In this document: in pieces, positions 23,713-48,445 of the stretch | How positions within the stretch are numbered: position 1 is the first letter of the stretch | Layout: each line of letters opens with the position of its first letter | Source of the DNA: Umezawaea tangerina | GTDB taxonomy: Bacteria > Actinomycetota > Actinomycetes > Mycobacteriales > Pseudonocardiaceae | Reading direction: 5' to 3' | Assembly (NCBI RefSeq): GCF_003002815.1 | Contig: NZ_PVTF01000006.1 | Location: forward strand, 62,001 to 126,000 | Length of the DNA stretch: 64,000 nucleotides | Program-made: the position numbers and the translations under genes | Notes under the pieces: model-generated | Database searches by the model: none | The model's input: only the letters and a program-made list of their open reading frames with translations | Told to the model about the DNA's origin: nothing

Positions 23713-23881
23713 GGGCGCAGCCCGCCAGCGCGCATCCGGCGCGAAGCGCCTGGGGCCTTGTCGGCGCCAGCCGATGCCCTGTCGAGCGCAGCTCGATGCC
23801 TTGTCCAACGGCGCAGCCGAGGATGCTTTGTCGGGCGGAGCCCGATGCAGTGTCGGACGTAGTCCGATGCTGGCGAAGCCA
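23713..23881 (+). repeat. GNA-loop mini-hairpin array, locus R1
   Basis: Eight short palindromes spaced 18-30 bp: 23713-23723, 23738-23750, 23761-23774, 23782-23796, 23809-23819, 23831-23845, 23853-23867 and 23871-23881. Stems differ (GGGC/GCCC, GGCGC/GCGCC, GAGC/GCTC, GGAC/GTCC, TGGC/GCCA) but each closes on a C-GNA-G triloop (GCA, GAA, GTA, GGA); the third has a GCCA tetraloop. Most units start with TTGTC or TGTC and end with GATGC. The same architecture recurs at 33873-34069 and 48174-48354. Translations across it are Arg/Ala-rich artefacts. It lies downstream of the DUF305 gene and upstream of the TetR gene. Confidence 0.88.
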
Positions 23882-23916
23882 GACTCCCCCTCTGCCCCCG
23901 ATCCACAGCGCCCTCC

Positions 23917-23971
23917 TACCTGATCTTCGTTGTCAAGACAGCCCTATCGTCTTGACAACGAAGATCAGGTA
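23917..23971. terminator. Long palindrome of locus R1
   Basis: Perfect 23-bp arms (23917-23939 and 23949-23971) with a 9-nt loop AGCCCTATC. Core TTGTCAAGAC/GTCTTGACAA is shared with the palindromes at 33781-33841 and 48391-48445. It lies 53 bp beyond the DUF305 stop in the direction of transcription and would terminate that transcript. ATTGAGACAATCGCGCGCC, following on the plus strand, is also shared with the third locus. Confidence 0.85.
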
Positions 23972-32675: not shown

Positions 32676-32691
32676 GAACGGGGTGATCGGT

Positions 32692-33636
32692 GTGACGGTT
32701 GGCGATAGCCACCGCCGCGACTCGGATCTGCTGCGCGAACTGGAACCGATCGTGGAGGTGAACCTCGACCGCCACTTGTCGATCGCCAAGGAGTGGATGC
32801 CGCACGACTACGTCCCGTGGAGCGAGGGCCGCGACTTCGCGTTCCTCGGCGGCGAGGACTGGCGCCCGGAGGACTCCCGGCTCGACCCCACCGCCAAGAC
32901 GGCGATGATCATCAACCTGCTGACCGAGGACAACCTGCCCTCGTACCACCGGGTGATCTCCCAGTCCTTCGGCAAGGACGGCGCCTGGGCCACCTGGATG
33001 CACCGCTGGACCGCCGAGGAGGCCCGCCACGGCATCGCCCTGCGCGACTACCTCGTCGTCACCCGCGGCGTCGACCCGGTCGAGCTCGAGCGCAAGCGCA
33101 TGGAACACATGTCGGTCGGCTTCGAAGGCCAGACCGAGTCCGCGATCCGCAACATCGTGTACGTGTCCTTCCAGGAGCTCGCCACCCGCATCTCCCACCG
33201 CAACACCGGCCGCGCGACGAACTGCCCGCTCGCCGACCAGCTGCTCGCCCGCATCGCCACGGACGAGAACCTCCACATGGTCTTCTACCGCAACCTCGTC
33301 ACCTCGGCCTTCGAGGTACAGCCCGACGAGACCATGCAGGCCGTGCGGGACGAAGTCATGAACTTCAAGATGCCCGGCGCCGGCATCTCCGACTTCCTGC
33401 GCAGCTCAGCGACTATCGCCAACGCCGGCATCTACGACCTCAGGCTGCACCACGACGAGGTGATCATGCCGATCCTGAGGTTCTGGAAGGTGTTCGAGCG
33501 GACGAACCTCGGCGGTGAGGGGGAGAAGGCGCGTGAGGAGCTGGCGGAGTTCATGAGCGTGCTGGACGGGAAGGCGAGCAAGTTCGTGGAGATGAGGGAG
33601 CGGAGGAGGGAGCGGGCGGCGAAGGCTGCTGAGTAG
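32692..33636 (+). CDS. Acyl-ACP desaturase (fatty acid desaturase type 2)
   Basis: 314-aa soluble di-iron desaturase that introduces a double bond into acyl-ACP. Iron ligands lie in TAEEARHGIALRDYL and ATDENLHMVFYRNL (two ExxH motifs), with a further Glu in LTEDNLPSYHR. Close in layout to mycobacterial DesA proteins (N-terminal LLRELEPIVEVNLDRHLSIAKEW). GTG at 32692 has GGGGTGA five bases upstream; GTG at 32683 is the alternative. C-terminal end is Arg/Glu-rich. Probably supplies unsaturated fatty acids. Confidence 0.92.
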   Translation: MTVGDSHRRDSDLLRELEPIVEVNLDRHLSIAKEWMPHDYVPWSEGRDFAFLGGEDWRPEDSRLDPTAKTAMIINLLTEDNLPSYHRVISQSFGKDGAWATWMHRWTAEEARHGIALRDYLVVTRGVDPVELERKRMEHMSVGFEGQTESAIRNIVYVSFQELATRISHRNTGRATNCPLADQLLARIATDENLHMVFYRNLVTSAFEVQPDETMQAVRDEVMNFKMPGAGISDFLRSSATIANAGIYDLRLHHDEVIMPILRFWKVFERTNLGGEGEKAREELAEFMSVLDGKASKFVEMRERRRERAAKAAE

Positions 33637-33780
33637 TTGGATTTCGGGTAGTTGGGTTTTAGGGAGTTGGACCGGTTTGGCCTTGGCCGTGGGTATGCGC
33701 GGCCAAGGGTCGGTCGTGGGTTCTTCCGGCGTTGGGGTTGGGTGGTGGGGAACATGCCTCCAACCCGCTCGCCGAGTGTT

Positions 33781-33841
33781 CTATGCTTGCCACCCCTTGT
33801 CAAGACGATGAAGCTGTCTTGACAAGGCGTGTCAAGCATAG
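33781..33841. terminator. Long palindrome of locus R2
   Basis: 26-nt arms with two mismatches (33781-33806 and 33816-33841) and a 9-nt loop whose minus-strand reading is AGCTTCATC, matching loops at the other two loci. The outer arm (CTATGCTTG/CAAGCATAG) is unrelated in sequence to the others, while the inner CTTGTCAAGAC is shared. Lies 145 bp after the desaturase stop and is a likely terminator. Confidence 0.8.
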
Positions 33842-33872
33842 AGATGGCTTCGGATCGGGTTGCCGGGTGGAT

Positions 33873-34196
33873 CTGGCTACGCCAGCATCAGGCTGCGCCT
33901 GACCGGGCATCGGGCTACGCCCGACAAGGCATCCTCGGCTGCGCCGTTGGACCAGGCATCCGCGCTTCGCGGCGGACCAGGCATCGGCTGGCGCCGACAG
34001 GGCATCCTCGCTGCGCGTCGGACAAGGCCACAGGCGCTCCGCGCCGGATGGGGGTGACGGGCTGCGCCCCGCTGGAGGTCCTCGCTGCGCGTCGGGGCTG
34101 GCAGGCCTGAGTTGGGCTGGGCCGGTCTCGGCTGTGCCTTTGGGTGGGGATACCCCTCTCTTTGCGTCGGAACAAGATGGGCGGGCGCTCCGCGCC
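33873..34196 (-). repeat. GNA-loop mini-hairpin array, locus R2 (inverted)
   Basis: About ten units in inverse orientation to the other loci: 33873-33883, 33890-33900, 33910-33924, 33936-33946, 33960-33972, 33984-33997, 34009-34017, 34033-34045, 34059-34069 and a decayed pair to 34196. Read on the minus strand each loop is GNA (GTA, GCA, GAA, GGA) or the GCCA tetraloop, with changing stems and TGTC/GATGC flanks. The terminal TGGC/GCCA unit is again nearest the long palindrome. Most of the 860-bp gap between the desaturase and the ATPase gene is this array; the last 300 bp hold decaying copies and nothing else I can name. Confidence 0.82.
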
Positions 34197-48173: not shown

Positions 48174-48354
48174 GGCGCAGCCGCCACCTCGCATCCGGCG
48201 CGTAGCGCCCACCCGCCTTGTCCGACGGCGAAGCCAAGGATCCCCACGATGGGCGCAGCCCGCCAACGCGCATCCGGCGCGAAGCGCCTGGGGCCTTGTC
48301 CGACGGCGCAGCCGAGGATGCTTGAGTCGAGCGCAGCTCGATGCTGGCGAAGCC
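48174..48354 (+). repeat. GNA-loop mini-hairpin array, locus R3
   Basis: Eight units at 48174-48182, 48197-48209, 48227-48235, 48251-48261, 48276-48288, 48304-48314, 48327-48341 and 48344-48354, with loops GCA, GTA, GAA. The last three or four units match R1 closely, including GGCGC-GAA-GCGCC and TGGC-GAA-GCCA, while stems elsewhere differ. Fills the start of the gap between the convergent sigma partner gene and the sugar permease gene; the rest to 48598 is the long palindrome and GC-rich sequence with no gene. Confidence 0.88.
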
Positions 48355-48390
48355 AGACTTCCCCTCTGCCCCTGATCCACAGCGCCCTCC

Positions 48391-48445
48391 TACCCGATCT
48401 TCGTTGTCAAGACAGCTCCATCGTCTTGACAACGAAGATCGGGTA
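48391..48445. terminator. Long palindrome of locus R3
   Basis: Perfect 23-bp arms (48391-48413 and 48423-48445), loop AGCTCCATC. Differs from R1 by one base pair (T-A to C-G) changed on both arms. Flanked by the same CCCGATCCACAGCGCCCTCC-like and ATTGAGACAATCGCGCGCC sequences as R1. Lies 154 bp beyond the sugar permease stop in the direction of its transcription. Confidence 0.85.

Follow-up and report, generated by a model that had tools for sequence, protein, structure and literature searches.

Integron attC sites serve recombination and are recognised in folded single-stranded form, their stem sequences being variable, and a cGNAg loop gives a DNA mini-hairpin great stability. The pneumococcal BOX repeats are reported to have a modular head-middle-tail organisation, to number 125 copies in the strain studied and to be predicted to fold; they are described as over-represented between convergent genes, almost restricted to close relatives and bearing terminal inverted repeats and target duplications, and they have been read as parasitic (PMC3049150). 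REP and BIME sequences are described as many extragenic palindromes and modular arrays in which complementary changes preserve the palindromes, some enterobacterial REPs reading GCG-N-AGC at the tip (PMC2817692). The promoters of the phage N4 virion RNA polymerase are reported to be DNA hairpins with a three-base loop and a sheared G-A pair, which extrude at a superhelical density of -0.035 with Mg2+ as well as in vivo, and whose non-conserved stem bases are free provided that they pair (PMC4496689).

The window analysed here, a stretch of 64,000 nucleotides from the 10.7-Mb genome of Umezawaea tangerina (G000), contains a composite repeat that has in common with BOX, as the latter is portrayed in the report cited, variable middle modules, copy number, folding, convergent sites and narrow spread. 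The likeness is one of architecture (a head, variable middle modules and a tail, folding, many copies): the host phylum is different, the middle modules of the composite are cGNAg mini-hairpins with covarying stems, and no terminal inverted repeat of the kind expected of a MITE is defined for it, whereas BOX is reported to have such repeats and target duplications. Like REP and BIME, the composite amounts to many short extragenic palindromes in one genome, but it has no GTAG/GTGG-type head, the copies read being flanked by TGTC and GATGC, and no Y1 transposase was detected in G000, in the same-genus genomes G001 and G002, or in six of seven further carriers. With the N4 promoters, as described, it shares short DNA hairpins, a three-base loop and stem letters that are free when paired, yet those are single phage promoters and the composite holds an array of hairpins; a likeness to attC sites would be one of analogy only. 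We consider it probable, at roughly 60%, that the composite is a non-autonomous mobile element of BOX-like build, recognised as folded DNA by an enzyme supplied elsewhere. Its mobility is well supported by the observations below; recognition at the DNA level, transposition itself and the enzyme are what we infer.

The array at 23713-23882 (Table 1) comprises, as an earlier note on this DNA had read it, eight mini-hairpins in 170 bp with differing stems, 4-6 bp long, and C-G closure in all; seven loops are C(GNA)G and one is C(GCCA)G. The flanks, described there as constant, are so in units 3-7 only (TGTC...GATGC or TGTCC...GGATGC), the outer TC/GA pairing within the stem, and the first two units and the last are flanked otherwise. 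The array forms the left half of a composite of about 290-300 bp, the other half being a long terminal hairpin, whose inverted repeat begins after a gap of 34 bp. The order is a head, GGGCGNAGCCC and GGCGCGNAGCGCC, followed by the row of units, CTGGCGNAGCCAG, about 50 bp and the long hairpin, and it recurs with small differences at two further places in the window, one of them on the opposite strand, and more than 100 times in the genome, which bears out the placing of the array in a repeated composite. The composite consists of a head module of two hairpins, a variable number of units of about 22 bp and a tail module; in 75 composites, the 320 bp before the terminal hairpin hold between 2 and 11 hairpins of at least 4 bp. 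The 23713-23971 composite is flanked by minus-strand genes, one of TetR type and one with DUF305. The 19-mer core GCATCCGGCGCGNAGCGCC occurs 164 times in G000 and 49 times in G002, and not at all in G001 or in 28 further genomes. Rfam gave nothing above the gathering score on the composite or on nine loci with the terminal hairpin (sub-threshold microRNA-type matches to the long hairpin were taken as chance), and a literature search at the level of titles and abstract openings found no description of the repeat. Elsewhere in the window, 33019-33086 on the minus strand matches the Rfam ASdes sRNA (78.7 bits), antisense inside a called gene (32683-33636). To the right of the terminal hairpin, several type A composites, for example L023 at 18.7-19.2 kb, have degenerate tandem repeats (CCGGGCTTC...GGTGGGAGG), whose GGGCTTCGC complements the array's GCGAAGCCC.

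Table 1. Parts and copies of the composite repeat in the 64,000-nucleotide window
Feature	Position	Strand	Remark
Array hairpin 1, GGGC-GCA-GCCC	23713..23723	+	head module
Array hairpin 2, GGCGC-GAA-GCGCC, inside 19-mer core GCATCCGGCGCGNAGCGCC	23738..23750	+	head module
Unit with cGNNAg tetraloop, TCGGC-GCCA-GCCGA	23761..23774	+	identical interior 30 times among 364 units
Array unit TCGAGC-GCA-GCTCGA	23782..23796	+	
Long-form array unit, inner stem CGGC-GCA-GCCG	23809..23819	+	TCC/GGA outer pairs, small internal loop
Array unit TCGGGC-GGA-GCCCGA	23831..23845	+	
Array unit TCGGAC-GTA-GTCCGA	23853..23867	+	
Final array hairpin CTGGC-GAA-GCCAG	23870..23882	+	
Terminal hairpin, arms TTGTCAAGAC/GTCTTGACAA	23917..23971	+	23-bp perfect inverted repeat, 9-nt loop
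Terminal module, basal stem GCCCCCG/CGGGGGC, internal loop	23894..23995	+	3' side ...GAGACAATCG...
Second window copy of composite	48174..48445	+	array ~48174-48356, terminal hairpin 48391-48445
Third window copy, type B	33780..34196	-	array hairpins 33873-34196; terminal hairpin ~33780-33843, outer stem less perfect

Units were gathered by their flanks (NGTC...GATGC), blind to the loop, from 94 composite regions in 85 sources of G000. Among the 364 units so obtained, 324 read CGNAG at the loop, 35 only CGNNAG (GCCA in 31 and GTCA in three, neither of GNRA type, and one damaged unit) and five neither; in G002, CGNAG is present in 43 of 49. The earlier note had set its reading against loops that vary as freely as stems, and in these flank-anchored units the loops are held (359 of 364 in G000), although its word "invariant" is slightly too strong because exceptions exist, five of 364 in G000 and six of 49 in G002, the latter including two C(AAC)G loops. 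Its further statement, that loop and pairing are kept while stem letters change, largely stands: at least three contiguous Watson-Crick pairs adjoin the loop in 303 of the 359 rule-loop units, and 56 fall short of this, so that pairing is not intact everywhere. The 112 short units have the stems AGGC/GCCT (38), GGGC/GCCC (26), GAGC/GCTC (22), GGAC/GTCC (22) and CGAC/GTCG (1), besides three unpaired hybrids, with only four unpaired cells (three A-C, one G-T); their middle loop base (C 45, G 39, A 22, T 6) varies beneath each of the four common stems. Because single-hairpin counts across the genome swamp the signal, clusters were counted instead, as at least four triloop hairpins in 200 bp, for 64 loop classes in 1734 kb of G000, a sample of 85 sources many of which were picked for containing matches: C(GnA)G gave 86 clusters and its complement C(TnC)G 83, with at most two for any other class. 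Two contiguous 200-kb blocks, one known to contain matches, yielded seven clusters, the complement being the sole other class, and the window itself has three C(GnA)G clusters. A flank-anchored count not restricted to composites was dropped, as 464 of its 734 matches lacked the rule loop and seemed to be fortuitous ones inside genes.

The loop rule (GNA, GCCA or GTCA, hardly any G-U) fits the stability of DNA mini-hairpins better than it fits RNA rules; ViennaRNA energies are useless for this choice because its DNA parameter set scored all 64 triloops identically. The fold might also be functionless, the units being ordinary repeats whose palindromes stay perfect through template switching and gene conversion and whose loop was kept by descent. 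Such a history would accord with the small number of unit types (78 distinct interiors among the 364), with the hybrids among them and with the ability of template switching, proposed as a mutational route, to keep stems perfect (PMC8794818). Yet two of the three loop bases are near-fixed and the middle one varies under each common short stem, descent alone would not guard the outer loop bases and free the middle one, and the tip and internal loop of the terminal hairpin recur across genera with the middle of the stem replaced, and we regard this account as unlikely. The same mutational route qualifies the earlier view that covariation implies a selected fold: pairing and loop are largely held, but selection is unproven by this, since template switching can keep paralogous palindromes perfect, and the missing G-U intermediates are for the same reason no proof of selection on DNA.

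In the tail module, the terminal hairpin keeps its tip, varies in the middle of its stem without losing pairing, and stands on an internal loop and a basal stem. Its inner arms are constant and 13 bp of its outer stem differ among copies; the stem measures 23-27 bp, 57 of 70 copies are perfect, stem positions 10-22 show up to four Watson-Crick pair types, and tip positions 3-9 are identical in all 70, in a search that tolerated few tip mismatches. When arms were shuffled among copies of equal stem length, pairing fell from 0.96-0.99 to means of 0.66-0.80. An alignment of 34 of 35 reference sequences (one was dropped), which includes four genomes of two other genera but consists mostly of paralogues and takes its structure from the same sequences, has 96.7% standard pair cells, against 74.7% after shuffling (none of 500 reached the observed value) and at most 45.8% after sliding. 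Changes in these pair cells are two-sided in 215 cases and one-sided in five, G-U-type intermediates thus being nearly absent. Tip invariance is partly built into this alignment because all references were found with a tip-fixing pattern; fairer tests are the 70-copy set, found with a looser, still tip-based pattern, and the matches to a covariance model built from the 34 sequences, with which 120 genomes were searched. Nine model loci were aligned, and the following reappear in them in varied form: a tip like GUCAAGGC, a loop like CUUUCCC, the internal loop and a base like CCCCG/CGGGG. Mismatches of the G000 terminal hairpin, read on the array strand, are G-T or T-G in 13 cases and A-C or C-A in four, an excess that leans towards RNA on that strand and is not decisive, because five of the 13 fall at one position. 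Reading TTGACA near the terminal hairpin as part of a promoter was rejected, as the spacing and the second box, judged by eye, vary.

The two halves of the composite are unequally distributed. The array is present in two of three same-genus genomes (G000 and G002), the tandem-unit pattern matching 151 times in G000, 45 times in G002 and, among 295 other family genomes, a single time in one of them, without pairing. Terminal hairpins number 131-132 in G000, 116 in G002 and 74 in G001; the exact tip was found in 10 of 297 family genomes, with 1 to 132 copies each, and the covariance model matched in 16 of its 120 genomes, from 10 genera, seven of them with at least 22-28 copies scored each and nine with one. 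No array-type cluster accompanies the terminal hairpin at 14 loci of other genomes (at most two hairpins in 200 bp), and the array, limited to G000 and G002, therefore looks like a local addition to a more widespread terminal hairpin. In a wider contig collection, which may omit the genome itself and its near relatives, the array pattern matched 33 contigs of scattered taxa once each, taken as chance, and in viral contigs it had no match.

Sites also turn over between sister genomes. A 150-kb stretch of G000 aligned to G001 at 86.9% identity over 126 kb and to G002 at 91.9% over 140 kb; of its nine composites, three are shared with G002, four are absent there and two have no strict-pattern match. 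With a second G002 stretch added, 14 composites became comparable, four more having no mapped flank, and five proved shared, six absent and three without a strict-pattern match in the G002 gap, this last class being defined by the pattern only. Where a composite is absent, the G002 site is empty, carries a small gene, or has hairpins or repeats of other kinds. One site is clean (C1 of G000, ~1.1044 Mb): the flanks that can be aligned are separated by 329 bp in G000 and by 14 bp in G001, and in G002 they overlap by 15 bp, with borders that match, by eye and at this one site, in 12 of 16 positions, a figure that does not establish a target-site duplication. Four shared copies were viewed; a tip pair is compensated in them (AAGAC/GTCTT in G000, AAGGC/GCCTT in G002, both forms occurring in each genome in differing proportions), and arms and loop differ with pairing restored at most places. 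A second repeat family, a hairpin of ~112 bp with ends GCCGATTTkACTTGGGG...CCCCAAGTmAAATCGGC, variable inner stems and a sequence unlike the terminal hairpin, has 75 end-motif matches per strand in G001, 25 in G002 and 6-7 in G000. G002 has yet another kind of intergenic repeat, direct repeats like CACCCCGTGTCGAACGYTCAGG at the ends of genes, noticed in the gap at glgC and where L018 14.8 kb and L126 9.6 kb have their counterparts.

Composites sit at gene 3' ends. With gene positions from a custom gene caller, none of 94 overlaps a called gene, and the flanking genes are convergent in 58, tandem in 32, divergent in two and uncalled on one side in two (19, 13, 1 and 2 in a first sample of 35); gaps of at least 200 bp in the same stretches, often chosen for their matches, are convergent in 101 cases, tandem in 154 and divergent in 99. 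In the 32 tandem contexts, the array is in sense orientation 19 times and antisense 13 times. Such sites suit a structured transcription terminator or 3' UTR, in which the hairpin would end both convergent transcripts and the array would protect or anchor the 3' end. The position behind genes and between convergent ones, a 23-27-bp hairpin perfect in most copies, the 13-to-4 mismatch excess and the fact that the same gap in sister genomes can contain a different long hairpin all speak for it; yet no U-tract or T-run of the Rho-independent kind follows the hairpin in the copies listed, at some loci, L026 and L018 14.8 kb among them, a further hairpin of classical type stands, by eye, in the space that separates the composite from the stop codon, the clean site is empty in G001 and G002, the tip sequence and internal loop are kept across genera, as is not expected of a generic terminator, and the orientation of the array shows no clear tie to transcription. 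We judge a terminator role rather unlikely. The same counts weigh on the RNA decoy suggested in the earlier note, and on a small RNA with CsrB-like logic: near-identical loops are repeated on one strand, as such an RNA would predict, but the 19 sense and 13 antisense arrays show no consistent orientation, the tail has almost no G-U pairs (five one-sided against 215 two-sided changes) and the composite has no Rfam match above the gathering score, which together make such an RNA very improbable.

Convergent gaps are where torsion builds up. Extruded mini-hairpins might accordingly act there as supercoil sinks or as places where a DNA-hairpin protein docks, a protein-binding or topological array kept for host benefit, and hairpins of the cGNAg type, to judge from the N4 report, extrude readily (PMC4496689). 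The array is, however, missing in G001, one of the three same-genus genomes, and in almost all of the 297 family genomes, and its sites turn over, and therefore no general host need is visible; this role, too, appears improbable.

Copy number, patchy spread, site turnover and species-specific versions together point to a mobile non-autonomous repeat, which of the four functions offered in the earlier note fits these data best. On this reading the composite would spread as a non-autonomous mobile element built like the pneumococcal BOX, and would pile up behind genes because insertion there does least harm. Since the cGNAg loop is that of a very stable DNA mini-hairpin, the array would fold whenever replication or supercoiling exposes the strand, an enzyme acting in trans would recognise the folded single strand, and the letters of the stems would be of little importance provided that pairing holds. 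Counting against it are the G-T excess in the terminal hairpin, the 56 units that fall short of three pairs at the loop, the two C(AAC)G loops of G002 and the route by which template switching could keep stems perfect in the absence of selection. Transposition itself was not seen, and no mobilising enzyme was found. A search with PF01797 (Y1/RAYT), run on carriers other than those found by the covariance model alone, was positive in none of the three same-genus genomes and in one of seven other carriers, with five of 14 controls positive; a search for Y2 (IS91-type) enzymes had no match anywhere, controls included, and is uninformative. As a RAYT-type transposase is missing from nine of the 10 carriers tested, membership among the REP/RAYT systems was rejected, and the composite, a new form of interspersed repeat, is no REP. 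A mobile composite would thus be a BOX/REP-type repeat spreading without RAYT, and, with an array that keeps its stabilising loop bases while stems drift, would make the folding and use of such mini-hairpins in cells testable beyond phage N4.

Single-copy loci in other genomes give the terminal hairpin a different setting. In all five read (L226, L227, L228, L230 and L231, of the nine single-hit genomes), a second piece of conserved sequence, made up of a ~10-bp GC-rich hairpin and CTTGATCCCATAGAGCCAARTTCGGCA with at most one mismatch, comes 163-323 nt after the terminal hairpin, from about 1794-2022 onward in hairpin orientation. Beyond it the DNA is low in GC (46-60% over the windows that follow) and holds a gene that differs from locus to locus, whose protein is cut off by the locus end: one has GmrSD_N and PADLOC NsnA matches, one matches PtuA of Septu (4.9e-138), one matches ApeA_NTD1 below the cut-off only, and two have no family above the cut-off, one of these with a weak AAA match. 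By their sequence, two of the five cargo genes look like virus-defence genes. The terminal hairpin thereby connects copies dispersed over several genera with a neighbour of low copy number whose cargo varies and is in part defence-like, and it may be the outward sign of a mobile system that has yet to be described. These loci suggest a possible parent element for the composite: tentatively, the terminal hairpin could mark where a family-wide mobile system with anti-phage cargo recombines or ends; the hairpin would have escaped as a high-copy non-autonomous repeat in some genomes, G000 included, and gained the cGNAg array in G000 and G002. The enzyme of this putative system would read folded DNA; a Y1 transposase is an unlikely candidate. 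The second piece is absent, as a 26-mer, from G000, G001 and G002, and had no match in viral contigs, plasmids or phages; the 26-mer occurs in 69 of the 297 family genomes, spanning 18 of 46 genera.
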